Assembly: GCA_024508855.1 (NCBI GenBank)
Contig: JANINJ010000078.1
Coordinates: forward strand, 1 to 64,000
DNA from: Xanthobacteraceae bacterium
GTDB taxonomy: Bacteria > Pseudomonadota > Alphaproteobacteria > Rhizobiales > Xanthobacteraceae
Length of the DNA stretch: 64,000 bases
Direction of reading: 5' to 3'
Numbering within the stretch: the first letter of the stretch is position 1; each line of letters opens with the position of its first letter. Of this stretch, positions 37,518 to 62,531 are shown in pieces. The position numbers and the translations under genes were made by a program. The notes beneath the pieces were generated by a model. The model ran no database searches, had not been told where the DNA came from, and worked only from the letters and a program-made list of their open reading frames with translations.

Positions 37518-37528
37518 TTACCGCAGGC
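37510..37528 (-). terminator. Hairpin across the korB stop codon
   Basis: Perfect 8-bp stem GCCTGCGG (37510-37517) and CCGCAGGC (37521-37528), with the TAA stop of korB as the loop. It could end the korA-korB transcript, but there is no real T-run after it. Confidence 0.4.
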
Positions 37529-44095: not shown

Positions 44096-45293
44096 GATCG
44101 GCATCCGTTTCCAGGGTGCCACCCTTGAAATTGCGATAGACGAAGCGATTGACGTCGCCGGATGCCTCGGTTTCGGCCATCTTGAAAATCTGCTCATGCA
44201 TCGGCGACAGCGTACAGGCCGGGTCTGTATTGCCGGCGTCGCCCGTCAGTGCGAAGGCCTGACAGCGGCAGCCGCCGAAATCGACTTCCTTGAACTCGCA
44301 ACTCCGGCAAGGCTCCGGCATCCAGCCAGTGCCGCGATAGCGGTTGAACGCGTCGGAGTTCTGCCAGATCCAGGCAATCGAATGATTGCTGCGCACCGAT
44401 TCGAAGTCGAGCCCGGTGATCGTTTCCGCCGCATGGCACGGCAGGATTTTGCCGGTGGGCGAGATATTGAAGAACTGCCGCCCCCAGCCGCCCATGCACT
44501 TCTTCGGCCGCAGTGCATAGTAGTCCGGTACGACGTAGTCGATGGCGAGAATGCCTTTCAGCCGTGCTTCGGCTTCTTCGACGATCCGACTGGTTTCTTC
44601 GATCTGCTCTAGTGTCGGCATCAGCGCGGCGCGGTTCTTCAGTGCCCAGCCATAGTACTGCACGTTGGCGACTTCGAGCCGGTCGGCGTCGAAATCGACC
44701 GCCATCTGGATGATGTCCGGCAATTGATGCAGGTTCTGCCGGTGCATTACCGCGTTGACGGTGAGGGGCAGATCCATCTCGCGCGCCCAGCCGGCCACTT
44801 CGATCTTCTTCGCGTGCGCATTCTTCATGCCGGCAACGCGATCGGCGACAACCGGTTCGTTACCCTGGAAGCTGATCTGGATATGGCACAGCCCGGCATC
44901 TGCCAGAGCCTGGAGCTTGTCGCGCGTCAGCAGCACGGCAGAGGTAATCAGATTGGAATAGAGTCCAACGTCGGTCGCGTGCTGGATCAGCTCGGTCAGA
45001 TCTTTGCGCGCCGTCGGCTCGCCGCCAGAGAAGTGAATCTGCAGCACGCCGATTTGCGCCAGTTCGGTGAGAACCTTCTTCCACTCGTCGGTGGTAAGTT
45101 CGTTGCTGGCGCGTTCGAGTTCGACCGGATTGGAGCAGTAGGGACATTGCAGCGGACAGCGGTGTGTCAGTTCCGCCAGCACCGCGAGCGGAATGCCGAA
45201 CGTCTCCGCGGTCGAGCCGCGCTGTTCGAGAATGGCCAGTCCGTCATTCGGATCGACGGCGATAGGCGTTGCATCGGTGAGCGTCGGACTCAT
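44085..45293 (-). CDS. pqqE: PQQ biosynthesis radical SAM enzyme PqqE
   Basis: 402 residues. The radical-SAM cluster motif is ELTHRCPLQCPYCSNP. The C-terminal SPASM domain carries further cysteines (KCMGGWG, PCRSCEFKEVDFGGCRCQAF). It makes the C-C bond between Glu16 and Tyr20 of the PqqA peptide, with PqqD as chaperone. The ATG overlaps the pqqD stop by 4 nt. Confidence 0.97.
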   Translation of the reverse strand: MSPTLTDATPIAVDPNDGLAILEQRGSTAETFGIPLAVLAELTHRCPLQCPYCSNPVELERASNELTTDEWKKVLTELAQIGVLQIHFSGGEPTARKDLTELIQHATDVGLYSNLITSAVLLTRDKLQALADAGLCHIQISFQGNEPVVADRVAGMKNAHAKKIEVAGWAREMDLPLTVNAVMHRQNLHQLPDIIQMAVDFDADRLEVANVQYYGWALKNRAALMPTLEQIEETSRIVEEAEARLKGILAIDYVVPDYYALRPKKCMGGWGRQFFNISPTGKILPCHAAETITGLDFESVRSNHSIAWIWQNSDAFNRYRGTGWMPEPCRSCEFKEVDFGGCRCQAFALTGDAGNTDPACTLSPMHEQIFKMAETEASGDVNRFVYRNFKGGTLETDADHDA

Positions 45294-45604
45294 GCATCCT
45301 TCTCCCGCGCTTCAACCAGAAATCCCTTGTCGGCAAGATCCTGCAGCATGGCGATGACATCGGCACCGATGGCGTCCCGCGGCGCCGCATATTTGCCGGC
45401 CAGTTCGTCGATCATCTGCGCCACACTGCGCTGGCTGTCGCATAGCTGCAGAATCTCGACCGCGATATCGTCAGGAGCCAGCACGCGTTCCGGCGCGAGG
45501 ATCACCCAGCGCTGCCGGGTCTCGTCGAACTTGAGTTTGGCGTGCCGCGGCAGCATCGGACGGCTGGTCTCGCTCACACTGATATGCCGGCTTCGCAACG
45601 CCAT
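45290..45604 (-). CDS. pqqD: PQQ biosynthesis peptide chaperone PqqD
   Basis: 104 residues with a winged-helix peptide-binding fold. The sequence RLKF-like HAKLKFDETRQRWVILAPER followed by LDDIAVEIL-like DDIAVEILQLCDSQRS is typical. It binds PqqA and delivers it to PqqE. Separate gene here, not fused to pqqC. It starts 24 nt after pqqC and overlaps pqqE by 4 nt. Confidence 0.95.
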   Translation of the reverse strand: MALRSRHISVSETSRPMLPRHAKLKFDETRQRWVILAPERVLAPDDIAVEILQLCDSQRSVAQMIDELAGKYAAPRDAIGADVIAMLQDLADKGFLVEAREKDA

Positions 45605-45628
45605 CGATCTGCCTTCAGGTCTTGTTTT

Positions 45629-46393
45629 TCAAGTCTTGCCGGGTACGAATGCTCCAGGCGGAACATGTCCCTCGACGTAAGCATGATACAGCGCATCGAG
45701 CTGCACCCAAAGCACATTGGTCTTGAAGATCAGCGCATTGCAGACCGCTTCGCGTTCGCTCGGCGTGTTGGCATGTGCCTTGACGTAATCGAGCGCGAAA
45801 TTGGCATCGCGCGGCGCTTGTTCCAGACGACGCTTGAAATAGCTCATGATGTTTGGGTTCACGAAATCGTAATGCGCCAGCATGCCGGAGATGCGTTCTT
45901 CGTGCAGGTTTGGCGCAAACAGTTCCGTGAGCGAGGATGCGATGGCTTCGAGCGGCGTGCGATCGCGGACGAAGTGCACATAGGCGTCCACGGCAAAGCG
46001 GGTGGCGGGAAGGATGCCTTCGGCGGATTCGACGTAAGCGCTGTCAAGGCCAAGCCCTTCCGTCAGTTTCAGCCAGCGCTCGATGCCGCCTTCGCTGCCG
46101 ACGTCGCCGTCATGATCCTCGATGCGATGCCGCCATTCAAGGCGCGTCTCACGGTCGCGGAAGCGCGAGATCACCACCGCGTCCTTGATCGGAATCGTGC
46201 TCTGATAATAGTAACGGTTCAGCGCCCACGCCTGTACCTGGCCCTTGTTGAGCTTTCCGCCGTGCAGCAGGCCGTGAAACGGATGCAGGTTGTGATAGCG
46301 CGTCGCGCCGATATGGCGTAGCGCCGCTTCCAGTTCGTCGGCGTTTTGCAGTGGCTTGTCGGCCACGAGCGAGAAAGCGGTCGTCTTGATCAA
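45629..46393 (-). CDS. pqqC: Pyrroloquinoline-quinone synthase PqqC
   Basis: 254 residues of the cofactor-less oxidase that catalyses the last ring closure and eight-electron oxidation to PQQ. Helical family sequence is clear: YHNLHPFHGLLHGGKLNKGQ, NRYYYQSTIPIKDAVVISR and RDRETRLEWRHRIEDHDGDV (His and Arg residues of the active site). The start codon is TTG, overlapping the pqqB stop (TTGA). This non-ATG start could lower PqqC output. Confidence 0.96.
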   Translation of the reverse strand: MIKTTAFSLVADKPLQNADELEAALRHIGATRYHNLHPFHGLLHGGKLNKGQVQAWALNRYYYQSTIPIKDAVVISRFRDRETRLEWRHRIEDHDGDVGSEGGIERWLKLTEGLGLDSAYVESAEGILPATRFAVDAYVHFVRDRTPLEAIASSLTELFAPNLHEERISGMLAHYDFVNPNIMSYFKRRLEQAPRDANFALDYVKAHANTPSEREAVCNALIFKTNVLWVQLDALYHAYVEGHVPPGAFVPGKT

Positions 46394-47319
46394 AGCGTGA
46401 TCTCCATTCCGTCGTGCGGGATCTGCCAGCCCGCTTGCTCCGCCGCTTTGCGTTCCGCGGAATCGTGCAGCAGCGCCGGATTCGAATTGTTGATATGCAG
46501 GAAGACCTTGCGTCCGATGCCGAGGCTGGATAGCGCGGCGATGGCGCCGTCGTCGCCGGACATCGCGATGTGCCCCATGGCCTGACCGGTCTTGGCGCCG
46601 AGTCCGGCCGCGATCAGTTCATCGTCGCGCCACACGGTGCCGTCGAAGAACACCAGCGACGCGCCGTTGATGCGCCGGGCGAGGTCAGGGGTCATTCGAG
46701 CGCACGCTGCCAGATAGTAGAAATGCTTTCCGGTCGCCTTGTCGGCAATCCGCAGCCCGAGCGTATCCCCTTCGGTGTCTTCGCCTGCCGGATGTTGCTT
46801 GCCCTCGAGATACCAGGCGCGCTTGCCTGCAACGATGAACGGCAAAATCTCGATTCCGGAGGGGGAGCCGTCCGGCAATCGCGGCTCGAACGGCTGGTCC
46901 ACCAGGATCGGCGTTCGCTGCACGTATTTCTCGTTCAGCACGTTGAAGATGCTGTTTGCCGCAAGGATCGCCAGCACGTCGCGGTGCGCGTAGATCGTGA
47001 ACGGCGAGCTCTCGCGGAGGGTCAGCAACCCGGCGACCGCATCGACCTCGCTATTGGTGAGAATGACACCCGCAATCGGACTGTGTCGCAACTCGCCATG
47101 CTTCGGATGAAGCTGCGGTGTCGAAATCACCTGCTGCCGCAAATCGGGCGAAGCGTTGACGAGAAACCAATGTGCGCCGTCGGCGCTGATAGCGATCGAC
47201 GACTGGGTGCTTTTCAGTTCGGGATGTGTGCTGCGCGCCGCATTGCAGACGCTGCAACCACAATTCCACTGGGGAACGCCGCCGCCTGCCGCGGCTCCAA
47301 GAACGACAACACGAAGCAT
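46390..47319 (-). CDS. pqqB: PQQ biosynthesis protein PqqB
   Basis: 309 residues, metallo-beta-lactamase fold. It opens with LRVVVLGAAAGGGVPQWNCG and has CSVCNAAR (Cys-X2-Cys) shortly after, features of PqqB. Instead of a full HxHxDH, the motif region reads ILTNSEVDAVAGLL, as is normal for PqqB. The family is reported to act as a hydroxylase/oxygenase on the Glu-Tyr intermediate. The ATG at 47319 starts the family sequence; the longer frame upstream runs through pqqA. Confidence 0.96.
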   Translation of the reverse strand: MLRVVVLGAAAGGGVPQWNCGCSVCNAARSTHPELKSTQSSIAISADGAHWFLVNASPDLRQQVISTPQLHPKHGELRHSPIAGVILTNSEVDAVAGLLTLRESSPFTIYAHRDVLAILAANSIFNVLNEKYVQRTPILVDQPFEPRLPDGSPSGIEILPFIVAGKRAWYLEGKQHPAGEDTEGDTLGLRIADKATGKHFYYLAACARMTPDLARRINGASLVFFDGTVWRDDELIAAGLGAKTGQAMGHIAMSGDDGAIAALSSLGIGRKVFLHINNSNPALLHDSAERKAAEQAGWQIPHDGMEITL

Positions 47320-47359
47320 GACATCGCTCCTGGACCCGGACAGGTCGTCGCGAAGCTGC

Positions 47360-47440
47360 TTATTTGCGGGCCGCGCAGGCGTACATGTTGATTTCCATGC
47401 CAACCGGCACTTCAACAATCTTAGGGGTCTTCCAGGCCAT
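47360..47440 (-). CDS. pqqA: PQQ precursor peptide PqqA
   Basis: 26-residue peptide. It begins MAWKTPKIVEVPVGMEIN and ends MYACAARK. Glu16 and Tyr20, the two residues that become PQQ, are in the required E-X3-Y spacing. The ATG at 47440 follows the ribosome-binding site GGGAGATGG. It lies 40 nt before pqqB. Confidence 0.97.
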   Translation of the reverse strand: MAWKTPKIVEVPVGMEINMYACAARK

Positions 47441-47458
47441 TTCCATCTCCCAGACAGA

Positions 47459-47476
47459 TGCGGCACGATTGCCGCA
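47459..47476 (-). promoter_or_regulatory. Hairpin in the pqqA leader
   Basis: Perfect 6-bp inverted repeat TGCGGC-ACGATT-GCCGCA, ending 18 nt before the pqqA start codon. If transcription begins near 47477, the hairpin would be the 5' end of the mRNA and could affect stability or translation of the abundant PqqA message. Confidence 0.4.
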
Positions 47477-49170: not shown

Positions 49171-50571
49171 ATGGAGGCTCTCTGGCGTCTTTCGGCAACC
49201 GAACTCGCAGCACGGGTGCGGTCGCGGCAAGTCACTGCTGTGCAAGCCGCAACGGCGGCGCTGGAGCGCCTTGAAGCCGTCAATGCGAAGATCAATGCCG
49301 TCGTCGATCACAGGCCCGAGGAGACGCTGGCGCAGGCGGCAGCCATCGACAAGGCGATCGCGCGTGGCGACGATCCCGGGGTGCTTGCCGGCGTGCCGAT
49401 CACGACCAAGGTCAATGTCGATCAGCAAGGCTTTGCCACCACCAACGGCATTCGCCTGCAGCGGGATCATGTCGCGAAGGAGGATAACCCTGTTGTTGCG
49501 AATTTGCGGCGCGCGGGTGCTGTCATCGTCGGCCGCACCAACACGCCGGCATTCTCCTATCGCTGGTTCACCAACAATCAGTTGCACGGCCATACCAAAA
49601 ATCCGCGCGATCCCGGCCGCACGCCTGGAGGTTCTTCGGGCGGCGCCGGAGCTGCGACCGCCGCAGGAATCGGCCATATCGGTCATGGCACCGACATCGC
49701 CGGGTCGGTGCGTTATCCGGCCTATGCCTGCGGCATTCATGGATTGCGGCCGACGCTCGGGCGTATTGCCGCTCATAACCTGTCGCTGCCGGAGCGGCCG
49801 CTGTGTCCGCAGATCTCGGCCGTTTCCGGTCCGCTGGCGCGAACCATCGGCGACCTGCGCATTGCGCTCGCGGCGATGTCGCAGCAGGACCTGCGCGATC
49901 CGTGGTGGGTGCCGGCGCCGCTCGAAGGGCCGCCGATGCCGCGCCGTGCCGCATTGTGCCTGCGGCCCGATGGACTGGAGACCGTGCCGGAAGTGATCGA
50001 TGCGCTGAAAGACGCCGGACATCGTCTGCAGAGCGCGGGCTGGACCGTCGAGGAGATTGAGAACACGCCGCCGCTGAACGAGGCTGCCGAGCTGCAGCGA
50101 ACGTTCTGGCTGGGCGATGGCTATGAGGCGGCGCTGGCGACGGCCGAGCGCGAAGGCGATCCCGGCGCATTGGCATGTCTGCGCGGCAGCCGTGACAAGG
50201 TTTATCCGCTCGACGCTGCGGGATTGTCGGCGATCGTACAGCGGCGCGCCGCGTTGACGCGTGCATGGCAACTGTTTCTCCAGGAATATCCCGTGCTGGT
50301 GATGCCGGTCTCCGGCGAATTGCCGTTTCCCGATCAGCTCGATCTCAAGGACGATGCGTCGTTCGCGCGGGTATGGCGCGCGCAGGTGACACAGGTTGGG
50401 ATTCCCTTCATGGGATTGCCGGGGTTGACGGTTTCGACGGGATTGGTGGGCCGCGTGCCGGTGGGCGTTCAGGTCGTTGCCGGGCGCTATCGCGAGGACC
50501 TGTGTCTGCTGGCAGGCGAAGCCATCGAGGCCGGCGGCACGCCATCGTCACCGATCGATCCTGTTACCTGA
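49171..50571 (+). CDS. Amidase (amidase signature family)
   Basis: 466 residues with the amidase-signature core: GVPITTKVNVDQQGF contains the catalytic lysine, GRTPGGSSGGAGAATAAG the serine-rich loop with the cis-serine, and GHGTDIAGSVRYPAYACG the nucleophile serine. Relatives include GatA, fatty-acid amide hydrolase and aryl amidases. No gatB/gatC is nearby and it lacks GatA-specific features, so it is probably a catabolic amidase of unknown substrate. AAGGAA precedes its ATG. The peroxidase gene follows 32 nt later. Confidence 0.9.
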   Translation: MEALWRLSATELAARVRSRQVTAVQAATAALERLEAVNAKINAVVDHRPEETLAQAAAIDKAIARGDDPGVLAGVPITTKVNVDQQGFATTNGIRLQRDHVAKEDNPVVANLRRAGAVIVGRTNTPAFSYRWFTNNQLHGHTKNPRDPGRTPGGSSGGAGAATAAGIGHIGHGTDIAGSVRYPAYACGIHGLRPTLGRIAAHNLSLPERPLCPQISAVSGPLARTIGDLRIALAAMSQQDLRDPWWVPAPLEGPPMPRRAALCLRPDGLETVPEVIDALKDAGHRLQSAGWTVEEIENTPPLNEAAELQRTFWLGDGYEAALATAEREGDPGALACLRGSRDKVYPLDAAGLSAIVQRRAALTRAWQLFLQEYPVLVMPVSGELPFPDQLDLKDDASFARVWRAQVTQVGIPFMGLPGLTVSTGLVGRVPVGVQVVAGRYREDLCLLAGEAIEAGGTPSSPIDPVT

Positions 50572-51350: not shown

Positions 51351-52520
51351 ATGCCCGTTCGCATCGTCGACGTACGCGAGATCACGAAGCCGATATCGTC
51401 ACCGATCCGTAATGCCTACATCGATTTCACGAAGATGACGACCAGCCTTGTTGCTGTCGTCACCAATGTCGTTCGCGATGGCAAGCCGGTGGTCGGTTAT
51501 GGCTTCAATTCGAATGGCCGTTACGGGCAGGGCGGCCTGATCCGCGAGCGTTTCGCGGATCGGCTGACCGAAGCCGATCCGCAGGCGTTGCTCGACGACC
51601 CCGGCGACAATCTCGACCCCGACAAGGTGTGGGCGACGTTGATGTCGAACGAGAAGCCCGGTGGCCACGGCGAGCGTTCGGTGGCCGTCGGCACGATCGA
51701 CATGGCGATCTGGGATGCGGTGGCGAAGATCGCGGGACAGCCGCTGTTTCGATTGCTCGCCGAGCGCCACGGTAAGACCGCCAACCCGCGCGTGTTCGTT
51801 TATGCCGCCGGTGGCTATTACTATCCGGGCAAGGATCTGGCGATGCTGCGCAACGAGATGCGCGGCTATCTCGATCGCGGCTACAATGTCGTCAAGATGA
51901 AGATCGGCGGCGCCTCGATCGATGAAGATCGTCAGCGTATCGAAGCGGTGCTGAAGGAGATCGGCACGCAGGCGCAACTGGCCGTCGATGCCAATGGCCG
52001 TTTCGATCTGGAGACTGCGATCGCCTACGCCAAAATGCTGCGGGACTATCCGCTGTTCTGGTACGAGGAAGCTGGCGATCCGCTGGATTATCAGCTGCAG
52101 GCGGCGCTGGCAGAATTCTATCCCGGTCCCATGGCGACCGGCGAAAATCTCTTCAGCCATCAGGATGCGCGCAACCTGATCCGCTATGGCGGCATGCGGC
52201 CGGATCGCGACTGGCTGCAATTCGATTGCGCGCTGTCGTATGGGCTTTGCGAGTATCAGCGCACGCTCAAGATGCTGGAAGCGCACGGCTGGTCGCCGAG
52301 CCGCTGCATTCCGCATGGTGGCCACCAGATGTCGCTGAACATTGCGGCCGGGTTGGGACTCGGCGGCAACGAAAGCTATCCGGACCTGTTCCAGCCTTAC
52401 GGCGGATTCCCGGATGGCGTTCGGGTCGAGGCTGGCCACATCACGATGCCCGATCTTCCGGGGATCGGCTTCGAGGGCAAGGCGGATCTTTATGCCGAGA
52501 TGAAGGCCTTGGCGGCTTGA
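51351..52520 (+). CDS. tarD: D-tartrate dehydratase
   Basis: 389 residues of the enolase superfamily (mandelate racemase/muconate lactonizing group). Lys184 in NVVKMK and His322 in CIPHGGHQM are at the same positions as the catalytic pair of the characterised Bradyrhizobium D-tartrate dehydratase (recalled; structure 1TZZ). The Mg ligands Asp213, Glu239 and Glu265 also agree in number. The rest reads as a close relative of that protein. It dehydrates D-tartrate to oxaloacetate. It follows DUF3297 after 7 nt. No tartrate transporter is obvious nearby. Confidence 0.9.
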   Translation: MPVRIVDVREITKPISSPIRNAYIDFTKMTTSLVAVVTNVVRDGKPVVGYGFNSNGRYGQGGLIRERFADRLTEADPQALLDDPGDNLDPDKVWATLMSNEKPGGHGERSVAVGTIDMAIWDAVAKIAGQPLFRLLAERHGKTANPRVFVYAAGGYYYPGKDLAMLRNEMRGYLDRGYNVVKMKIGGASIDEDRQRIEAVLKEIGTQAQLAVDANGRFDLETAIAYAKMLRDYPLFWYEEAGDPLDYQLQAALAEFYPGPMATGENLFSHQDARNLIRYGGMRPDRDWLQFDCALSYGLCEYQRTLKMLEAHGWSPSRCIPHGGHQMSLNIAAGLGLGGNESYPDLFQPYGGFPDGVRVEAGHITMPDLPGIGFEGKADLYAEMKALAA

Positions 52521-52700: not shown

Positions 52701-53549
52701 ATGCAGGTGCCGTTGCGGCCGGAGATCGAAACCGGGGCTGGAGCTACGTCCGGTCGACCGCGCGCGCCTGCGATGATCGAGATCGACTCCGTTTCGCAGC
52801 GCTTCGAAATCTCCGGGCGCAAGAGTCACCTTGCGCTCTCGGACATCAACCTGACGGTCGAGGATGGCGCGTTCGTTTCGATCCTCGGCCCATCCGGTTG
52901 CGGCAAGTCGACCTTGCTTTACATCGTCGGCGGTTTCGTCAATCCGACGCAAGGTGCCGCGAAGGTCAAGGGCAATGTCATCAAGGGGCCGGGGCCGGAT
53001 CGCGGACCGGTGTTCCAGGAGTTCGCGCTGTTTCCCTGGAAGACCGTGATCGGCAACGTGATGTACGGCCTGCGGCAGCAAGGCGTGAAACGCGCCGAGG
53101 CCGAAACGCAGAGCCGCCGGTTGATCGAGATGGTCGGCCTCAAGGGTTACGAGAATTTCTATCCGAAGGAATTGTCCGGCGGCATGAAGCAGCGCGTCGC
53201 GATCGCGCGCACGCTGGCCTATCATCCCTCGGTGCTGCTGATGGACGAGCCGTTCGGCGCGCTGGATGCGCATACGCGCACACGCTTGCAGAACGATCTG
53301 CTCGAGATCTGGGAGCGCGACCGCAAGACGGTGCTGTTCGTCACGCATTCGGTCGAGGAGGCGGTGTTCCTCTCCGACAAGGTCGTGGTGATGACGCGCT
53401 CGCCCGGCCGTATCAAGCAGATCGTCGATATCGATCTGCCGCGTCCGCGCCGCCGCGCCGAACTGCTGCTCGATCCGCATTACCAGAAGTATGTCGTCGA
53501 CATCGAGAAGCTGATCGACGACGGCCGCGACGACGTGGTGCAGCCGTGA
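52701..53549 (+). CDS. ABC transporter ATP-binding protein (NitT/TauT family)
   Basis: 282 residues. Walker [13 protein letters not shown], signature [13 protein letters not shown], Walker [13 protein letters not shown] and switch His in [13 protein letters not shown] are all intact. The subfamily (SsuB/TauB/NrtD-like) energises uptake of nitrate, sulfonates, taurine or pyrimidine-type compounds. A good ribosome-binding site GAGGGGG precedes the ATG at 52701. The last bases GTGA overlap the GTG start of the first permease. No clue to substrate in this subunit. Confidence 0.93.
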
Positions 53550-54331
53550 CGCCGATGCGCGTCGCGGCATCCCGCATTTCGCCGCTGCTGGCGTGCCTCG
53601 GTTTACTGGCGGCGTGGCAGATCGCGGCCCTGTGGCTCAATACCGACAGTTTTCCAACCGCATGGCAGGCGATCAAGACCGTTCCCGACATTCTCGGCGA
53701 TCGTGAATCGCTGCTGAACATTCTCGATTCCGTTCGGCGGATGGCGATCGGCCTGACGCTCGCCGTGCTGATCTCGATTCCGCTGGGGCTGGCGATGGGC
53801 CGCAGCTCGCGCGTCGCGGCATTCTTCAATCCGCTCCTGATGATGGTCTATCCGGTACCGAAGGCGGCGCTGATGCCGGTGATCATGCTGTGGCTCGGGG
53901 TCGGGGACGCATCGAAGACGTTGGTGATCTTCCTCGGCGTCAGCCTGCCGGTGATCTATCACAGCTTTCAGGGCGCCAGGGCCGTCGAGGAAAAGATGCT
54001 GTGGTCCGGTGCGGCGATGGGATTGAGCTGCATGCAGCGCATGTTCCGCATCGTGCTGCCGGCGGCGCTGCCGGAAATTCTCACCGGCTGCCGCACCGGG
54101 TTGGTGCTGGCGCTGATCACCATGGTGACCAGCGAAATGATCGCGCGGCAGTCCGGCGCGGGCAACATCCTGTTCAATGCCATGGACATGGCGCAGTACG
54201 ACACCGTGTTCGCCATGATCATCATCCTCGGCGCGCTCGGCATTATTCTTGACGCCGCATTCGACAAATTGCGCTGGCGGCTGGTGCGGTGGGCGGAGCC
54301 GCGTCAGGAAATTCTGTTGGGTGCTGCCTGA
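53546..54331 (+). CDS. ABC transporter permease (NitT/TauT family), first
   Basis: 261 residues from a GTG that overlaps the ATPase stop; an ATG three codons later is also possible. Hydrophobic segments begin with [18 protein letters not shown]. The cytoplasmic EAA-like loop, [20 protein letters not shown] preceded by [16 protein letters not shown], is typical of this permease family. The stop overlaps the start of the second permease (TGATG), so the two form a heterodimer by tight coupling. Confidence 0.9.
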
Positions 54332-55092
54332 TGACGCGCCATTTCAACGCGATCCTGATGGGGCTGGTGCCGATCGTGCTGGTGCTCGCGCTGTGGCAGG
54401 CGCTGTGCAGCTTCGGCACTGCGCCCCCGTCGCTGCTGCCGCCGCCGGGCAAGGTGTTTTTGCGGCTCGTGCAACAGCTCGGCAATACCGGATTCCTCGA
54501 TGACATCCTCGCGACGTTGTGGCGGCTGTTCGCGGGCTTCTTCATCGCGGTGGTGCTTGGCGTCGGCATCGGCCTTGCCGCGGCGGTCAGCCCTGCCGTC
54601 AACGCGGTAGTGCGCCCCCTGGTGCAGGTGCTGGCGCCGCTGCCGAAGGTCGCGCTGTATCCGGCGCTGATCATCCTGTTCGGCTTCGATCATGCGTCGA
54701 AGATCACGCTGGTGACGCTGGATGCGCTGTTTCCGATCCTGCTGTCGACCTACTACGGCGCGTCGATGGTCGAACAGAAACTGGTGTGGTCGGCGCTCGC
54801 GGCCGGCACGCCGCGTCGCCAGATCCTGTTCAAGGTGATTTTGCCGGCCGCGCTGCCGTCGATCCTCACCGGCTGCCGCATCGGCCTCGTCATTTCCTGT
54901 ATCGTGGTATTTCTCGCCGAGATGATCACGTCGACCGATGGTCTCGGCCATCTGCTGGTCGGCGCGGCGCGCACGTTCCAGACCGTCGACATGTTCGTGC
55001 CGCTGATCACGATCTCGTTGCTCGGATTGATGCTCAACGGCTTGCTGTTCGGCCTGCGGAAGTATTTGCTGCGTGGATTTCCGGAGGTGTGA
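54331..55092 (+). CDS. ABC transporter permease (NitT/TauT family), second
   Basis: 253 residues. Similar to the upstream permease: an N-terminal segment AILMGLVPIVLVLALWQAL, about six membrane passes, and the EAA loop in LAAGTPRRQILFKVILPAAL. The pair would build the channel. The gene ends near the mcd gene, which runs in the opposite direction, with a REP-like palindrome between them. The matching binding protein is probably the one at 56690-57679. Confidence 0.9.
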   Translation: MTRHFNAILMGLVPIVLVLALWQALCSFGTAPPSLLPPPGKVFLRLVQQLGNTGFLDDILATLWRLFAGFFIAVVLGVGIGLAAAVSPAVNAVVRPLVQVLAPLPKVALYPALIILFGFDHASKITLVTLDALFPILLSTYYGASMVEQKLVWSALAAGTPRRQILFKVILPAALPSILTGCRIGLVISCIVVFLAEMITSTDGLGHLLVGAARTFQTVDMFVPLITISLLGLMLNGLLFGLRKYLLRGFPEV

Positions 55093-55203: not shown

Positions 55204-56556
55204 CTACGACAGCCTCAAATCCAGCAGTCTCCGCCCCTCGGTCTTGAGCAGTTTCTTCACGGCGCTGGAGGCGACGACTTCGTCGTCGTTGGCGTAGGCT
55301 TCGTGGTTCTTCTCGATGTCGTCGAGGCGGTACAGGTAGTTCACCATGATGCCGGCGGATTCGCGCAGGCCTTTGGACGAGACATCGCCGAGCCAGTTGA
55401 TTTGCTCCAGCCGTGCGCCGTTGCCGAGATGGAAGCGCGCCACCGGGTCCACCGGCTTGTCGCGCGGGGTCTTCGCCTTGAGGAAATAATAGGCGGCCAG
55501 CGGCTCCAGCACTGCGCGCAGTCTTGCCGCCAGGTCGGGATCGTCGATCCAGCTGTCGTCGTCGAGGTGCGCGAGCAGGGCGCGATCGTCTTCGTTGAGC
55601 GGCAGTTCCGCCTCGCGCTTGATCCAGCGCATGAAGCCCGGCACCGGTGACAGCGTCACGAACGTATCGAGCTTCGGCAGTTCGCGGCGCAGTTCCTCCA
55701 CCACCTGCTTGATGAGGAAGTTGCCGAACGAAATGCCGGCAAGACCGCGCTGCGTGTTCGAGATCGAATAGAATACCGCGGTGCGTGCTCGCTCGATCGG
55801 CACCGGCTGGCGATCGACGGCGAGCAGCGGCGCGATCGCGCCGGGAATACTTTCGGTCAGCGCCACCTCGACGAAGATCAGCGGCTCGTCCGGCAGCGCC
55901 GGATGGAAGAAGGCGTAGCAGCGCCGATCCACCGGATCGATACGGCGGCGCAGGTCGTCCCAGTCGTGGATCTCGTGCACGGCCTCATAGCGGATGACCT
56001 TCTCGAGAATGTTTGCAGGGCTCGACCAGTCGATACGGCGCAGCACGAGAAACCCCCGATTGAACCACGAGACGAACAGGTGCGCGAGATCGCGATCCAC
56101 GGTGTCGAGATCCTTGCGATCCCTGGCCGCGCCCAGAAGATCGGCGCGCATGCCGACCAGTTCGCCGGTGCCGCCCGGCGCGCGGTTGAGGCGGCGAAAC
56201 AATTCCTGCCGCCGCGGTTCGGTGGCGAAGTGAAGTCCGCCGCCGGCGCCGCCGACGCCGCTGCGCCACAGGTCGATGGCTTTTTCGACCTGCTCGCGGT
56301 CGGGGCCGAAGGAACGGGCCAGCGCCTCGAAGAATTCCACGCGTCCCTGATCGTCGAGGGTGCGATAGCTGTCCAGCACATCGCGCGCCAGCACGGTGCC
56401 GGAAGCTTCGCCACGGCCCGACAGCAATCCTTCGCACAGCGCCACCACGCCGGTTGCATCGAGCGGCGTTGCATTCGACCAGCCGCCGCGCCGAAGCAGG
56501 TTGCGGCCGCGCTCGGAGATCGATGCCATCAGATCGGAAAAGAAATCGTTGCTCAT
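55204..56556 (-). CDS. Malonyl-CoA decarboxylase
   Basis: 450 residues. The N-terminal helical domain is followed by a C-terminal acetyltransferase-like catalytic domain. In the latter, TLSPVPGFMRWI carries the candidate Ser, and VARFHLGNGARLEQINWLGD with the following SSKGLRESAGIMVNYLYRL carries the His/Asn region. It converts malonyl-CoA to acetyl-CoA. The ATG at 56556 begins the family N-terminus. It is antisense to the flanking ABC genes and shares a 133-nt divergent region with the binding-protein gene, which hints at joint control. A separate malonate pathway is not visible. Confidence 0.92.
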   Translation of the reverse strand: MSNDFFSDLMASISERGRNLLRRGGWSNATPLDATGVVALCEGLLSGRGEASGTVLARDVLDSYRTLDDQGRVEFFEALARSFGPDREQVEKAIDLWRSGVGGAGGGLHFATEPRRQELFRRLNRAPGGTGELVGMRADLLGAARDRKDLDTVDRDLAHLFVSWFNRGFLVLRRIDWSSPANILEKVIRYEAVHEIHDWDDLRRRIDPVDRRCYAFFHPALPDEPLIFVEVALTESIPGAIAPLLAVDRQPVPIERARTAVFYSISNTQRGLAGISFGNFLIKQVVEELRRELPKLDTFVTLSPVPGFMRWIKREAELPLNEDDRALLAHLDDDSWIDDPDLAARLRAVLEPLAAYYFLKAKTPRDKPVDPVARFHLGNGARLEQINWLGDVSSKGLRESAGIMVNYLYRLDDIEKNHEAYANDDEVVASSAVKKLLKTEGRRLLDLRLS

Positions 56557-56689
56557 GAACGAGGCACTTTCGCAGCAGGGAGCGTTAACGGCATCATACA
56601 CCGCAATGAAGCAACTTGCCTGATCATTTGAAGCATGAAAGGATTGCGTTCAAGGGACGATGCGCAAATTCAAACGGAGGAATTTCACG

Positions 56690-57679
56690 ATGCGGGGCAA
56701 TGCAATCAGGCATCTCGTCGCAGCCGGCTGCGCCTTGGGCGCGCTGCTGAGCGCGACCTCGGCTTACGCGCAGCAGACCATCCGCGTCGGCTGGACCATT
56801 CCGGCCGAGGAAGCCAAATACTGGATGATGCGGCGGCCGGCGGAATTCCCCGACATCGGCAAGACCTACAAGATCGAGTGGGTGCAGTTTCAGGGCACGG
56901 CTCCGATGACGCAGGCGCTCGCCGCCGGCGCGCTGGATTGCGCGACGCAGGGAGTATTGTCGCTGGCGCAGGGTGCGGTGTCGGGCAATCTGAAAGCCTA
57001 TATCGTTGCGCAGCACGTCTATGAAAAGCCGGGCGGCTTCTCGGTGTACTGGGCGGTGAAGGATGACTCGCCGATCAAGACCATCGCCGACCTCAAGGGC
57101 AAAACCATGGCGATCAACGTGCTCGGCTCCGGCATCTACGGACCGATGGCGTTGCTCCTGAAACAGAACGGCGTCGATCCGGAAAAGGATATCAAGCTCG
57201 TCGAACTCGGCTTCTCACTGTCGGAAGATGCCGTGCGATCGGGGCGCGTCGATGCCGCGCCGATGAACCAGCCGTTTGCGGCGCGCTCGGAAGCCAAGGG
57301 CGGTCTGCGCAAGCTGTTCTCGCTGTCCGAGCAGCAGAAGAACATTGTGCACATCCTCGATGCCTGCCGCGCCGATTTCGTCGACAAGAATCCGGAACTC
57401 GCCAAGGCCTATATCCGCGACCTGACGCTCGGCATGAAAAAGGCGCTGGCCAATCGCGACGAGACGCTGAAGGTCGTCAACGAGGTGATGAAAGCGCCGA
57501 TCCCGGTGCTCGATACGTATCTATTGAAGGACAACGATTTCGGCCGCGATCCCGGCGCTGCACCGAATTTCCCGGCGATCCAGCAGATGCTCGATACCTA
57601 TGCCGCGACCGGCATGCTGTCGAAGAAGCTCGACGTCAACCAGTTCAGGAAAGAAGGTTTCGTCGCGCCGCTGCAGTAG
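56690..57679 (+). CDS. ABC transporter substrate-binding protein (NitT/TauT family)
   Basis: 329 residues from ATG 56690, preceded by GGAGG. A signal peptide of about 28 residues ends in TSAYAQQ. The mature protein has IRVGWTIPAEEAKYWMMRRP and the NMT1/SsuA-like DLKGKTMAINVLGSGIYGPM signature. It probably delivers ligand to the permeases at 53.5-55.1 kb, although the mcd gene is placed between them on the other strand. Ligand unknown: an amine, sulfonate or aromatic acid is possible. Confidence 0.9.
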   Translation: MRGNAIRHLVAAGCALGALLSATSAYAQQTIRVGWTIPAEEAKYWMMRRPAEFPDIGKTYKIEWVQFQGTAPMTQALAAGALDCATQGVLSLAQGAVSGNLKAYIVAQHVYEKPGGFSVYWAVKDDSPIKTIADLKGKTMAINVLGSGIYGPMALLLKQNGVDPEKDIKLVELGFSLSEDAVRSGRVDAAPMNQPFAARSEAKGGLRKLFSLSEQQKNIVHILDACRADFVDKNPELAKAYIRDLTLGMKKALANRDETLKVVNEVMKAPIPVLDTYLLKDNDFGRDPGAAPNFPAIQQMLDTYAATGMLSKKLDVNQFRKEGFVAPLQ

Positions 57680-57849: not shown

Positions 57850-58824
57850 TCACCCCTCCGGCGTCTGCCGATCGATCAGCAGGTCCAGCGCATACTTGAT
57901 CGTCGCGCGTTCTTCGTCGGTGAATTGCTTCAGCACTTCGGCTTCATGCGCCTTGGCGGCGCGCTGCACCGGCTCGACGCGGGCGCGGCCCTTGGCGGTG
58001 AGGTGGATCGTCACCCGGCGGCGGTCGCCGCTTGTTGCGCGGCGCTGTAACAATCCGTCGCGCTCCATACGATCCAGCACCTTGGTGAGCCGCGGCTGCT
58101 TCATCAGCGCCATCGCCGCGAGTTCGCCGACCGACAGGCCTTCGACATCCATCAGGCAGGCCAGCACGCGCCACTCCGGCACCGTAAGGTCCCAGTCGCC
58201 GAGCCGCGCATGGAATTCGTTGGAGACGATGAAACTCGCACGCGCGAATAGATAAGCGAGGTAGTTGCGCGCAAAACTGTTGCTCGCCAGCGGCGGCGCG
58301 CGGCGCTGTGAGCCCGGCGCATCGATGCGGCGCAGTTCGCCGGAATGAAACAGCAGCGGATCGTGCTGGCGCTCCACCATGCGCACCACTTCGCCGACCA
58401 AAATGGTGTGGTCGCCGCCGGGATAGCGCGCCCACACCTTGCACTCGAAGATCGGCGCCAGTCCCTCCAGCAGCGGCGCGCCGGTTTCGCCGGGCGCGTG
58501 CGCCATGTCGGCGAACTTGTCGACGCCGCTGGTGCCGAAACGCAATGCGAGATCGCGGTGATCGGCGCCGAGAAAATGCACCGCGAAGGCGTCGGCGGCG
58601 ACGAAGGCGTCATGGCTCGGCGAGGATTTGGCGACGCTCCATGACACCAGTGGCGGATCGAGCGACACGGAAGAGAACGAATTGGCCGTCATGCCGACGA
58701 CGTGTCCGCCGTGGGTGGCGGTGACCACCGCGACGCCGGTCGGAAATTGCCCGAGCGCCTGCCGGAACGAGCGCGGATCGAGGGCGGTTTTGCTTCCGAT
58801 CGTCCTTGCGTTGTTGTCGGCCAT
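57850..58824 (-). CDS. Flavin reductase fused to a MarR-type domain
   Basis: 324 residues. The N-terminal part (about 17-165) is a flavin reductase of the HpaC/NADH:FMN type: FPTGVAVVTATHGGHVVGMTANSFSS in parts, and the FHSGELRRID end. The C-terminal part (about 195-315) is a MarR winged helix (LGDWDLTVPEWRVLACLMD, RLTKVLDRMERDGLLQRR). The same order is found in the C1 reductase of p-hydroxyphenylacetate hydroxylase from Acinetobacter, where substrate binding to the MarR domain raises reductase activity. It would supply reduced flavin to a monooxygenase that is not encoded in the window. It is divergent from the NicX-like gene. Confidence 0.9.
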   Translation of the reverse strand: MADNNARTIGSKTALDPRSFRQALGQFPTGVAVVTATHGGHVVGMTANSFSSVSLDPPLVSWSVAKSSPSHDAFVAADAFAVHFLGADHRDLALRFGTSGVDKFADMAHAPGETGAPLLEGLAPIFECKVWARYPGGDHTILVGEVVRMVERQHDPLLFHSGELRRIDAPGSQRRAPPLASNSFARNYLAYLFARASFIVSNEFHARLGDWDLTVPEWRVLACLMDVEGLSVGELAAMALMKQPRLTKVLDRMERDGLLQRRATSGDRRRVTIHLTAKGRARVEPVQRAAKAHEAEVLKQFTDEERATIKYALDLLIDRQTPEG

Positions 58825-58857
58825 GGCGCGGTCCCGCAGGGCGTAGTCCTTTAACTC

Positions 58858-58873
58858 TAAAAATATTCCTTTT
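58858..58873. promoter_or_regulatory. AT-rich motif shared with the 7233-7261 site
   Basis: On the complement the bases read AAAAGGAATATTTTTA, which matches AAAAGCAATATTTATA at 7234-7249 in 14 of 16 positions. It lies between the start of the flavin reductase-MarR gene and the NicX-like gene and could be an operator. Function not shown. Confidence 0.35.
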
Positions 58874-58930
58874 CATGTAACACGGCCGCGCCTATCATCC
58901 AACGATAATCGGAAGATGAGGAGAGGCGGC

Positions 58931-59977
58931 ATGCAGGCGGATCGCATCGAGGCGAAATGGATCGACGCGTTCTGTGAGATATTCGAGCGTTGCGCCGTGA
59001 AGCCGGGCGACACCGCCGCCATTCTCTCCGAGACCCAGTCGCGTGCGCTCAACGTCCACATCGCCGAGCTGGCGTTGCTGCGCATGGGGGCGAAGCCGTT
59101 CCACATTGTGATTCCGACGCCGCGTAACAAGCAGGTGGTACCGGTGCGCTCCACCGGCGCCAGCGAGGCGATCCAGCGGCTCGGCCCGGTGGTCAGCGCA
59201 TTGCAGCAAGCCGGCTTCGTGGTGGACTGCACCATCGAAGGCCTGATGCATGCGCCGGAGACGCCGGACATCCTGAAAGCCGGTTCGCGCATCCTCGTGA
59301 TCTCCAACGAACACCCGGAAGCGCTGGAGCGCATGGTGCCGGATAGCGCATTGGAAAAGCGTGTGCGCGCGGCGGCGAAGATGTTGCGCGGCACGAAACG
59401 CATGAAGGTGACATCGAAGGCCGGCACCGATCTCGACGTCAACATGGAAGGCGCGCCGACGGTCGGCGTCTGGGGCTGGACCGACAAGCCCGGCACGCTG
59501 GCGCATTGGCCGGGCGGTATCGTCGTCTCGTTCCCGAAAAGCGGCGGCGTCAACGGCAGGCTGGTGATGGCGGCGGGCGACATCAATCTCACCTTCAAGC
59601 GCTATCTCACCTCCGCGGTGAACATGACGATCAAGGACGATTACGTCGTGGAACTGACGGGCGAGGGCGCCGACGCCGAGATGATGAAGCGCTATCTCGC
59701 TGCGTGGGGCGATCGCGAGGCCTATGCGGTGTCGCATGTCGGCTGGGGCATGAATCCGAACGCGCGCTACGAGGCGCTGACGATGTACGATCTCAACGAC
59801 ACCAACGGCACCGAAATCCGCGCCGTCGCCGGCAATTTCCTGTTTTCAACCGGCGCGAATGAGTTCGCGGGCCGCTACACCGCCGGCCATTTCGACCTGC
59901 CGATGTTCGGCACCACCATCGAACTCGACGGCACCACCGTGATCCGCGACGGCGAAGTGCTCGACGTGTTCGGGTAA
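58931..59977 (+). CDS. NicX-like ring-cleavage dioxygenase (2,5-dihydroxypyridine 5,6-dioxygenase family)
   Basis: 348 residues from ATG 58931 after GAGGAGAGG. It resembles Pseudomonas putida NicX along its length: the AAGDINLTFKRYL region, AVSHVGWGMNPNARYEAL and VAGNFLFSTGANEF. His269, His320 and Asp322 lie almost at the numbers of the NicX iron ligands (265, 318, 320, recalled), in SHVGWG and AGHFDLPMF. NicX opens the ring of 2,5-dihydroxypyridine with O2. The same fold relates to M29 aminopeptidases, so peptidase activity is an alternative. The usual nicotinate neighbours (nicD, nicF, nicE) are not in the window, so the real substrate is open. Confidence 0.78.
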   Translation: MQADRIEAKWIDAFCEIFERCAVKPGDTAAILSETQSRALNVHIAELALLRMGAKPFHIVIPTPRNKQVVPVRSTGASEAIQRLGPVVSALQQAGFVVDCTIEGLMHAPETPDILKAGSRILVISNEHPEALERMVPDSALEKRVRAAAKMLRGTKRMKVTSKAGTDLDVNMEGAPTVGVWGWTDKPGTLAHWPGGIVVSFPKSGGVNGRLVMAAGDINLTFKRYLTSAVNMTIKDDYVVELTGEGADAEMMKRYLAAWGDREAYAVSHVGWGMNPNARYEALTMYDLNDTNGTEIRAVAGNFLFSTGANEFAGRYTAGHFDLPMFGTTIELDGTTVIRDGEVLDVFG

Positions 59978-60068
59978 AGCATCCTCGCGCTTCGACCTAT
60001 TCCAGACTGGAACGGTTGAGACGCGCCGCCCTGCGCGCTACCCCATGCGTCATGCAGCAGGATGCGCG

Positions 60069-60455
60069 ATGGATGTGGCGATGAAGTTCTTCAAGTCGAT
60101 CGAACCCGGAATCTACGCCGGAACGTCCGCGCCGCTGGCCAGCGAAGACGACGGCGCGCAGTGGACGCGGGAATACGACGCCATCCTCGGCGAAGAGCAG
60201 CCGTTCGCCGTGATCGTCAATGCCGCGCAACGGCCGCAGCCGCCGGCCGGCAAGCCGATGGCGCTGTGGATGAAATCGCGCAAGGCGCAGCTTGGCGCCT
60301 GGGTCTGCGCCACGGTCTATATCGTCGAAGACGATGCGTTGCGTGCCGATTTCGAGCGCTCGTCGGACAAGCGGCAGAAGGCGTCGCCGTATCCGATGGC
60401 GTTCGTCGCGACCGAGGCCGAGGCACTCGCCGCGGCGCGCGCCGCGCTGGTGTGA
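60069..60455 (+). CDS. Hypothetical protein, 128 residues
   Basis: No family recognised. Start at 60069 is preceded by AGGA at 60059-60062; a longer start at 60045 is possible. The sequence DVAMKFFKSIEPGIYAGTSA opens a compact alpha/beta pattern with PFAVIVNAAQRPQ, AWVCATVYIVEDD and a C-terminal helix. It is probably soluble. It lies after the NicX-like gene (91-nt gap) on the same strand and is convergent with the HAD-type dehydrogenase, so it may be part of the same pathway. Confidence 0.6.
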   Translation: MDVAMKFFKSIEPGIYAGTSAPLASEDDGAQWTREYDAILGEEQPFAVIVNAAQRPQPPAGKPMALWMKSRKAQLGAWVCATVYIVEDDALRADFERSSDKRQKASPYPMAFVATEAEALAAARAALV

Positions 60456-60456
60456 A

Positions 60457-61443
60457 TCAGTCGCGCGCCGGTGGCCGCGCAAGCTCGAAGTGCTTCAGTA
60501 ATTCGACGAAGGCTTTCAAACGCAACTCGCGATACGCATCGACGTCCATGCCCGCATAGTCGAGAAATCCCTGCTGCGTCGACAGCCCGATCCGGCCTTG
60601 CTCCATGTTGCGGCCGATGATGTCGGGCGCGGCGTAGCGCTCGCTGTTCAATGCGCCAGTGAGATAGCGGCTGGCGTAATGCAGGATATCGCCGCCGCCC
60701 CAGTCGATGAACTCCAGCATGCCGAGCACGGCGAAGCGGAAACCGAAGCCGTATTTGATCGCCTTATCGATCTCGCCGGCCGAGGCGACGCCTTCCTCCA
60801 CCATGCGCGCGGCTTCGTTCATGGCGAGCGCCTGGATGCGCGGCACGATGTAGCCTGGCGTCGCCGCGCAGATCACCGGCACCTTGCCGATGGATTCCAG
60901 CACCGCCTTCAGCCGCGCGGTGATGGCTGGATCGGTGGCTTTGCCGGGCGAGACTTCCACCAGCGGCACCAGATAAGCGGGGTTGAGCCAGTGCGCATTG
61001 AGAAAGCGTTCCGGATGCGCGACGGTTCTGGACAGATCGTCGACGAGGATCGTCGAGGTGGTGGAGGCGATGATCGTTTCGGAAGCGGCCATTGCTGATG
61101 CCCGCGCCAGCGCCTCGCGCTTGAGATCGACCACTTCCGGTACGCCTTCGAAGACAATCGTAGCGTCGCGCAACGCCGCGGCGGCATCCGCCTCCGGCAC
61201 GATGCGCACGCGCGCCAGGATCGGCTCGATCCGGTCGGAAGCGAACATGCCGACGCGCGCCAGCATCGCCAACGTCCGGCGGATGTCGTCCCGCGCATCG
61301 GTCGCAAGCTTGTCGAAGGCGGCGTTATCGCGTGGCTTGAAATCGATCACCGCGACGTCGTGGCCGGCATAAGCGAACGCCACCGCGATGCCGCGTCCCA
61401 TGCGTCCGGCGCCGAGCGCGGCGATGTTGTCGCGCGACATCAA
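60457..61443 (-). CDS. 3-hydroxyacyl-CoA dehydrogenase family protein
   Basis: 328 residues. The NAD-binding motif is LGAGRMGRGIAVAFAYAGHDV, and the C-terminal domain reads GFGFRFAVLGMLEFIDWGGGD. NAHWLNPAYLVPLVEVSPG is the active-site region. It resembles short-chain 3-hydroxyacyl-CoA dehydrogenases and L-carnitine/other beta-hydroxyacid dehydrogenases, so the substrate could be a CoA ester or a free acid. The start ATGA overlaps the end of the opine-type dehydrogenase gene. Confidence 0.88.
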   Translation of the reverse strand: MMSRDNIAALGAGRMGRGIAVAFAYAGHDVAVIDFKPRDNAAFDKLATDARDDIRRTLAMLARVGMFASDRIEPILARVRIVPEADAAAALRDATIVFEGVPEVVDLKREALARASAMAASETIIASTTSTILVDDLSRTVAHPERFLNAHWLNPAYLVPLVEVSPGKATDPAITARLKAVLESIGKVPVICAATPGYIVPRIQALAMNEAARMVEEGVASAGEIDKAIKYGFGFRFAVLGMLEFIDWGGGDILHYASRYLTGALNSERYAAPDIIGRNMEQGRIGLSTQQGFLDYAGMDVDAYRELRLKAFVELLKHFELARPPARD

Positions 61444-62531
61444 TGGAATCCTTCGCGCAATAATTTCTGCAGCGCGGCCTTGTCGAGGTCGCCGAAGCCG
61501 AGGCTTGCCAGTGTGCGGCCGCCTTGCGCAAAATCCTCGCCGCAGATCGCGCCGCCGATTGACAGGAACGCCTTCGCCAGCGGCGTTTCGACGCCAGCGA
61601 GTTGTGCAACCGAAACGAGGAATGACAGTCCGACACGCAGATCTTCGCGCATGTAACGATGCTCGCGCAGCACCAGTTGTTCGCGCCAGTCGCCCGAGTC
61701 GGTGAGGCGGTCATGCGAGCCGCGGCCGTACATCCATTCCTCGCCATCCTTGGCGTAATGATGTGCCAGCGGGAAATGCGGCGCGCCGTAACCCAGCGCC
61801 TCGCGTATCTTGATGCGCTCGGCATCGAGTGCATCGGTGACGCGGCGGATCGCGGCCTGCGTGCCTTCCTTGTGGATGTCCCAGCGCTCGAAGTGCTCGA
61901 TCGGCCCGGCATTCATCACGATCAGCGGTGGATGGATGATCGGCCCCGCATTCATCAGCGCGCCGGACAGCGCATCGCCGCACGGTTCGATCACGTCGGG
62001 AAACGCCCGGTTGATCACTGTGTAGGCATGAAAGGCGTTGGTCAGCGGAAACACGCCGGTCGGCAACCGCTTGGCGCGGATGGTGATGGCGACTTCGAAC
62101 GGACCATGCTTGCGCGTCAGCCAGGGCAACGTGCCGGTCTCGGCGAAGGAGACATCGGCGCGGTTGCCGGCATCGTGCGCGGCGCGCGCAAAGATCATTG
62201 AGCCGAAGGTGGCCGGCGGCAGATAGACCACCTGGCCATCGACGAGATGCGGCGCCAGCGCGCGGGCGATATCGGCTTGCGCGAAGGCGGGAGCGGGGCA
62301 GAGGATCAGCGCCGCATCGCGGACGGCTTCCGCCATGTCGGTGGTGACGAGCACAAGCTGGGGTTCGTGTCGGCCTTTGGAGTCCTTCACGACGATGCGT
62401 AAGCCCTCGGCGCGATGCTGCGCGGCGGCTTCAGCGTCGCGCCGCCACAGCCGCACCTCGTGGCTCTGCAGCGCGAAATCCCCTGCCGCCGCGAACGAGC
62501 CGTTGCCGCCGCCGAGTACGGTGATGATCAT
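61440..62531 (-). CDS. NAD/NADP octopine/nopaline dehydrogenase family protein
   Basis: 363 residues. The N-terminal Rossmann motif is MIITVLGGGNGSFAAAGDFA and the C-terminal helical domain includes the HHYAKDGEEWMYGRG-like region. Members join or cleave amino acids and 2-oxoacids as opines, or act on beta-hydroxyacids. In a catabolic group with an acyl-CoA ligase, cleavage of an imported opine-like or secondary-amine substrate is plausible but not shown. It is followed directly by the hydroxyacyl-CoA dehydrogenase gene. Confidence 0.85.
   Translation of the reverse strand: MIITVLGGGNGSFAAAGDFALQSHEVRLWRRDAEAAAQHRAEGLRIVVKDSKGRHEPQLVLVTTDMAEAVRDAALILCPAPAFAQADIARALAPHLVDGQVVYLPPATFGSMIFARAAHDAGNRADVSFAETGTLPWLTRKHGPFEVAITIRAKRLPTGVFPLTNAFHAYTVINRAFPDVIEPCGDALSGALMNAGPIIHPPLIVMNAGPIEHFERWDIHKEGTQAAIRRVTDALDAERIKIREALGYGAPHFPLAHHYAKDGEEWMYGRGSHDRLTDSGDWREQLVLREHRYMREDLRVGLSFLVSVAQLAGVETPLAKAFLSIGGAICGEDFAQGGRTLASLGFGDLDKAALQKLLREGFH

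Follow-up and report, generated by a model that had tools for sequence, protein, structure and literature searches.

We analyzed a 64,000-nt stretch of DNA (hereafter, the window) comprising positions 1 to 64,000 of contig JANINJ010000078.1 (C78) of a Xanthobacteraceae bacterium (NCBI GenBank assembly GCA_024508855.1), the right-hand end of which holds a set of genes around NICX, a predicted NicX-like Fe(II) ring-cleaving dioxygenase. The source genome is a 5.16-Mb draft whose closest named matches are Rhizobiales metagenome-assembled genomes (MAGs), Tardiphaga, and Bradyrhizobium, and the contig goes on beyond the window edge, to 151 kb. Genes were called by script from open reading frames (ORFs) picked by length, codon-position GC, or homology, with no trained gene finder, and these calls, together with family searches, bore out the gene positions proposed in an earlier note on this DNA. 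NICX is encoded on the plus strand (58916..59977, with a likely start at Met6, position 58931). To its left, on the minus strand, is RED (57850..58824), a flavin reductase-MarR fusion with Flavin_Reduct and MarR domains that matched 5zc2 over nearly its full length (E 8e-39). To its right, also on the minus strand, are HAD (60457..61443), a 3-hydroxyacyl-CoA dehydrogenase of the PRK08269 family (522 bits vs. a cutoff of 427), ODH (61440..62531), an opine/nopaline-type dehydrogenase (Octopine_DH; 1bg6, E 7e-29) that overlaps HAD by 4 bases, and ACS1 (62665..64179, running past the window end at 64000), an AMP-forming acyl/aryl-CoA ligase. Outside the window, the minus strand of the contig continues with ACAD (64481-65776), a protein of the acyl-CoA dehydrogenase fold, and ABH (65781-66617), an alpha/beta hydrolase, followed on the plus strand by a group of genes that we call module B (66895-71462). 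On the other side of RED, a NitT/TauT-type importer is encoded on the plus strand by an ABC transporter ATPase (52701..53549; SaoA/NtrCD/TauB-type models), permease 1 (53546..54331, start approximate, inside ORF 52898-54331; 36% like permease 2), permease 2 (54289..55092; Pfam BPD_transp_1, TauC-like), and, according to family searches, an NMT1/SsuA-type substrate-binding protein (SBP; 56660..57679).

Profile searches matched NicX of Pseudomonas putida KT2440 (7cn3) to nearly the whole length of NICX (E 4e-53). An AlphaFold2 model of NICX (pLDDT 90.5) superimposed on 7cn3 with Z 44.4 and a root-mean-square deviation of 2.2 over 341 aligned residues, at 33% identity, whereas M29 peptidases (AmpT/PepS) reached Z 20-22 against the same model. 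On this comparison, identification of NICX as an M29 aminopeptidase was rejected. The iron ligands of NicX, His265, Ser302, His318, and Asp320, align with His274, Ser311, His325, and Asp327 of NICX (353-aa numbering); the ligands presumed previously, His269, His320, and Asp322, agree with numbering from Met6 in the listed frame, and the fourth ligand, Ser311, is also present. All four are invariant in the aligned members of the NICX clade (33/33), and in a tree of 46 sequences a branch with 100/99 support separates these 33 members from the rest. As judged by the model and the tree, NICX is a NicX-fold protein of a separate, well-supported clade.

NicX cuts 2,5-dihydroxypyridine (DHP) between C5 and C6 to form N-formylmaleamate, and its Glu177 and His189 hold the substrate, Glu177 contacting the pyridone ring of DHP (PMC7910607). 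NICX shares with NicX the full-length fold, the four iron ligands, and equivalents of His105, which is invariant in the clade, and of His189, which is found in 30 of 31 rows. In contrast, Glu177, whose column in the NICX alignment was located by its distance from His189, is absent from all 31 clade rows, with Val, Ile, Gly, Asn, or Thr in its place, and is kept in 11/11 rows on the NicX-proper side. The NICX clade also differs from NicX by a two-residue insertion ahead of the His105 equivalent and by an RSTG/KSTG motif, and NICX has other operon partners. Judging from its sequence, use of DHP by NICX is not expected. A further branch of the NicX family (L166 and L168; 38-40% identity to NICX) lacks the equivalents of both Glu177 and His189.

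The best alignment of the MarR part of RED was to 3cdh and the next to the Variovorax auxin sensor MarR_73, also called IadR (7kki/7kfo). The residues of MarR_73 that bind indole acetate have been described (PMC9613470). RED shares five of them, Tyr15, Ser28, His32, Trp45, and Arg46, but it has Tyr for Ala18 and Met for Val65 and, unlike MarR_73, is fused to a reductase. Among 15 cluster-linked MarR domains, compared after close relatives of >72% identity were left out, 11 have all five ligand residues and four differ at position 28, 32, or 45. Since the carboxylate-binding residues of MarR_73 are kept, the effector of RED is probably an aromatic carboxylate. Substrate sensing by RED had been suggested earlier by way of its Acinetobacter homologue, here represented by 5zc2, the reductase C1 of p-hydroxyphenylacetate 3-hydroxylase. 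The architecture of C1, a flavin reductase plus a C-terminal MarR-type domain, does match, and sensing of an aromatic acid remains probable; the ligand pocket, however, differs, as C1 has Gln/Gln/Ala at MarR_73 positions 28, 32, and 45 where RED has Ser/His/Trp.

To the right of the window edge, where a two-component monooxygenase had been anticipated, the candidate is ACAD. Its closest solved relatives by profile (E 7e-47) were 5gj7 and 5z8t; the title of 5z8t names a flavin-containing monooxygenase. The profile alignment of ACAD with human SCAD ended before the catalytic loop, whereas 5gj7 aligned through it, and at the position of the SCAD base loop, which carries the dehydrogenase base (Glu368), the motif RDSRCG-LMLP is conserved in the ACAD clade. 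It is plausible that ACAD is a monooxygenase of group D (ACAD-fold flavin monooxygenases) working with RED, which stands beside it in some of the loci; IacA provides a precedent for an ACAD-like indole oxygenase (PMC6221969). In plasmid records, homologues of ACAD and NICX are annotated as acyl-CoA dehydrogenase and peptidase (M29), respectively. ABH has an alpha/beta hydrolase fold, as does NicD.

Conservation was assessed on named loci, i.e., the best 80 of 338, of which 64 were full length; homologues were counted at at least 45% identity, and the counts are not independent because the set is mostly Bradyrhizobium. HAD, ODH, ACS1, and ACAD occurred together with NICX in 59/64 full-length loci, so the co-occurrence in other genomes on which the earlier note had staked its pathway is observed. 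Homologues of SBP were found in all 64 (76 of the 80), of the transporter ATPase in 59, of ABH in 58, of the SDR and enoyl-CoA hydratase of module B in 57 each, and of a PRK08255-family enzyme in 47. The full-length loci without ACAD (L044-L047, L050) come from three Tardiphaga, Bradyrhizobium sp. NFR13, and a Bradyrhizobiaceae MAG. Within the Tardiphaga-type genus, an ACAD orthologue (82-87%) was present in 9/9 genomes, lying about 5 kb from NICX in two (G169, G140) and far away in the other seven. G169 carries, in one piece, module B, ABH-ACAD-ACS1-ODH-HAD, NICX, RED, and SBP, no permease being included in that stretch. For G155, G066, and G179, the ABH-ACAD-ACS1-ODH-HAD block is accompanied by the permeases, the ATPase, and some of module B but not by NICX; in G155 and G066, the genes found with NICX are MCD (a malonyl-CoA decarboxylase gene), SBP, and RED. 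Since the transporter is split over two places, we argue that both places are needed together. In a sample of the family, 94/296 genomes had a NicX-family match (E<=1e-20), and in 64 the best match belonged to the new clade (at least 75% identity).

Beyond the family, we used a class-level sample of 385 genomes, own family included. NICX matches taken at E<=1e-70 numbered 29; two of 39-40% identity (G452, G631) were excluded before counting and a fragment (G422) was retained in the NICX group, placing the clade in 27/385 genomes, and 11 further matches from another search also belong to it. Outside the family there were 36 clade matches, and for 20 of these we retrieved extended flanking sequence; ABH was present in 20/20, ACAD in 19/20, and an adjacent ACS1 in 13/20, while neither HAD nor ODH was detected beside NICX in any of these 20 loci. 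The combination NICX-ABH-ACAD is seen again in many families, as a rule together with the ligase, and HAD and ODH, which the earlier note listed with the cluster, are family-level additions outside this wider core. Six plasmids carry a clade member (at least 49% identity to NICX), from Aminobacter, Sinorhizobium, Shinella, and three near-identical Ensifer; ACAD is adjacent in all, and at E<=1e-60 it was found in one other plasmid record. The annotated Ensifer and Aminobacter plasmids show NICX, ACAD, a hydrolase, TetR, and a glutamine synthetase family gene, with an APC permease and a flavin reductase. On Aminobacter plasmid pAA02 (L219 8263-18879), the clade member is accompanied by cupin, fumarylacetoacetate-hydrolase-family, carbon-nitrogen hydrolase, and glutamine-synthetase-family genes, which suggests either an amine substrate or a lower route of the gentisate type. 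In a cyanobacterial plasmid assembly, the Dolichospermum DET69 plasmid MAG, ACAD has a lone homologue (58% identity; L235 9995-11242) among mobile genes, with no NICX in the 21-kb stretch around it.

Module B consists of adjacent genes for an SDR, an enoyl-CoA hydratase (PRK08258), a MarR regulator, an aryl-CoA ligase of the benzoate-CoA ligase family, and a RidA-family protein, all shared with the 2-aminobenzoyl-CoA (anthranilate) cluster. In relatives, an enzyme of the PRK08255 family, curated as salicylyl-CoA 5-hydroxylase, is present as well, as in that cluster. NICX is linked to such an enzyme in its own family, in two genomes of one genus of family f88, in one genome of family f24 (G1020), and in Shinella (about 21 kb), and module B lies no more than about 21 kb from NICX in four families. 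In the annotated clusters of Roseivivax and Phyllobacterium, both with an SDR and RidA and the latter also with a hydratase, a ligase, and another acyl-CoA dehydrogenase, neither NICX nor ABH nor a close ACAD was found within 8 kb on either side of the PRK08255-family enzyme.

We read these genes as a genuine catabolic cluster that acts on an aromatic carboxylate, probably not by a DHP route. Our preferred, still tentative reading, which we rate somewhat short of an even chance, is a conserved supercluster that handles an aromatic carboxylic acid, probably an N-heteroaromatic one, and in which NicX-type cleavage feeds an anthranilate-type lower pathway. From its family, the NitT-type importer would take up the acid, and the MarR half of RED, given its conserved ligand residues, would repress the cluster until the acid is bound. 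RED would then supply reduced flavin to ACAD, which would oxygenate the substrate, and ACS1 would make the CoA ester before or after oxygenation. NICX, with its NicX fold and ligands, would open the ring beside the hydroxylated carbon using Fe(II) and O2, as NicX does, and ABH would hydrolyze the product much as the deformylase acts on that of NicX. The leftover aromatic amine or acid could enter the adjacent 2-aminobenzoyl-CoA-type module, to which the genes are physically linked.

The motif N-CH=C(OH) occurs in indoxyl and 3-hydroxy-4-quinolone. By analogy, a ring with this motif, e.g., indoxyl or 3-hydroxyquinolone, is a plausible substrate that would yield an N-formylanthranilate-type product and would fit most of the parts. 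The more specific proposal, that this NicX-fold subfamily cuts the N-ring (five- or six-membered) of an indole- or quinolone-type acid at C2-C3 to such a product, giving alphaproteobacteria, many of them Bradyrhizobium, a third, non-iac, non-iad route to anthranilate, is one we consider doubtful at present. Identity with the iad auxin pathway was rejected, as those loci are described with a Rieske pair and other genes, not this set (PMC12633357, PMC9613470, PMC11630574); no Rieske gene was found among the neighbors scanned, iad and iac proteins not having been used as queries. The iif/GS indole clusters were likewise rejected, since they are described with a StyA-type oxygenase and the GS cluster with a cyclase-type formamidase.

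Several observations weigh against the supercluster as proposed. In structural comparison, acyl-CoA dehydrogenases made up most of the 30 best matches to ACAD (Z 39-42), and 5z8t, the monooxygenase, came at rank 31 (Z 39.1). RED at at least 45% identity was found in only 7/64 full-length loci, many others having a reductase of 40-45% nearby, and it was present in 8/20 distant loci (E<=1e-8), in some of which reductase and MarR are two neighboring genes rather than one. With Tyr and Met at positions 18 and 65, RED may bind a ligand of lesser size than indole acetate. In its Rhizobium-type form the cluster lacks an adjacent ACS1 and includes a glutamine-synthetase-family gene, and the scheme leaves these differences unexplained. 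Module B of the source genome is without a PRK08255-family enzyme, a copy of which lies on another contig (C17:17046-19355; 1361 bits). Finally, in co-occurrence statistics without control for genome size and phylogeny, the PRK08255 family was found in 20/27 NICX genomes vs. 51/358 others (p 6e-11), but boxB, an unrelated aromatic gene used as a control, was equally enriched (22/27 vs. 59/358, p 4e-12). The association persisted inside boxB-positive genomes (18/22 vs. 25/59, p 0.002) and was weak inside boxB-negative ones (2/5 vs. 26/299, p 0.07), with an odds ratio within boxB strata of 6-7. We therefore largely rejected genome-wide co-occurrence as evidence for the anthranilate link, since the control shows it to be largely non-specific, and the link rests mainly on gene order.

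The main rival is a pyridine route, in which a substituted pyridine acid is hydroxylated, the hydroxypyridine is cut by NICX with its altered pocket, and ABH is the deformylase. The full-length match to NicX and the retention of the His105 and His189 equivalents speak for such a route, as does the position of ABH near NICX, a deformylase adjoining NicX homologues in annotated Sphingobium plasmids (ndpE/ndpF). A NicX-type enzyme near an alpha/beta hydrolase is indeed shared with the nicotinate (nic) and nicotine (ndp) lower pathways, but the present locus has, in addition, a CoA ligase, an ACAD-fold protein, and a NitT importer. No maleamate amidase or maleate isomerase was found among 18 Pfam-scanned neighbors, the genome itself not having been searched, although an amidase-like ORF was read by eye 8 kb to the left of NICX (window 49171-50571). 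The earlier statement that standard nicotinate partners are missing holds within the window, but ABH lies just outside it. It also counts against the pyridine route that several genomes carry a second NicX-family member of 33-39% identity. Since Glu177 is lost throughout the clade and the neighboring module is of the 2-aminobenzoyl-CoA type, the substituted pyridine first suggested for this locus now appears less likely, and we regard the pyridine route as unlikely. Loss of Glu177, the residue that reads the ring nitrogen, would instead suit cleavage of a para-dihydroxy aromatic acid with a carbocyclic ring, similar to gentisate or homogentisate; ABH would then hydrolyze a C-C bond or a lactone, and module B would be a salicylyl-CoA/gentisyl-CoA route. 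The curated salicylyl-CoA 5-hydroxylase function of the module B enzyme family and the cupin and fumarylacetoacetate-hydrolase-family genes near NICX in Aminobacter agree with this, but the RidA-family proteins and benzoate-CoA-type ligases of module B better suit an amino substrate, and the characterized NicX relatives are known to use N-rings; we consider a carbocyclic substrate improbable.

A further possibility is that the lower part of the 2-aminobenzoyl-CoA pathway is itself carried out by NICX, ABH, ACAD, and ACS1. Both modules stand together in many loci of the family, and the later steps of that pathway are described only as beta-oxidation in the accessible part of a review. However, a PRK08255-type enzyme (E<=1e-150) occurs in 94 plasmid records and ACAD (E<=1e-60) in 7, and 7/27 NICX genomes are without a PRK08255-family enzyme at E<=1e-200, which makes this explanation quite improbable. 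That NICX is an M29-type aminopeptidase with unrelated neighbors is hardly credible: the annotation 'peptidase M29' of its plasmid homologues is opposed by the fold comparison, by the complete NicX iron site, and by the conserved gene neighborhood. Returning to the supercluster and its parts, our literature searches found no description of the NICX clade, its pocket change, or the gene set, subscription papers being mostly outside their coverage; the parts belong to known families, and the clade, pocket change, and gene set are apparently undescribed.

Two other genes lie between those discussed above. MCD (55204..56601, minus strand; Pfam MCD, 365 bits), between permease 2 and SBP, is linked in a minority of loci (14/80). 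P136 (60045..60455, plus strand), between NICX and HAD, is a small protein of no known family, without a Pfam or NCBIfam match, found only in the own genus (3/80 loci). Comparison with three relatives gave a Ka of about 0.08 and a Ks of about 0.6-0.8 (Ka/Ks about 0.1), and P136 is therefore a real gene under purifying selection. An MR_MLE enolase-superfamily gene (window 51351-52520) lies beside the transporter and is there only in the nearest relatives (6/80 loci, L037-L042). Elsewhere in the window, translations read by eye showed, on the minus strand at 44085-47466, a PQQ-type set in a row (a PqqE-like radical-SAM protein, a PqqD-size ORF, and PqqC-like and PqqB-like proteins), a 950-codon ORF resembling a transaldolase-glucose-6-phosphate isomerase fusion (34361-37213), and, at 37518-42222, two 2-oxoacid:acceptor oxidoreductase subunits beside a glutamate-synthase-small-chain-like protein with a ferredoxin-type C-terminus.

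If the proposed supercluster is correct, rhizosphere bacteria such as Bradyrhizobium would possess an unrecognized pathway for aromatic acids, one in which a NicX-type enzyme has a new specificity and, in part of these bacteria, the reductase doubles as the substrate sensor. The residues by which NICX differs from NicX make the question of its substrate directly testable.

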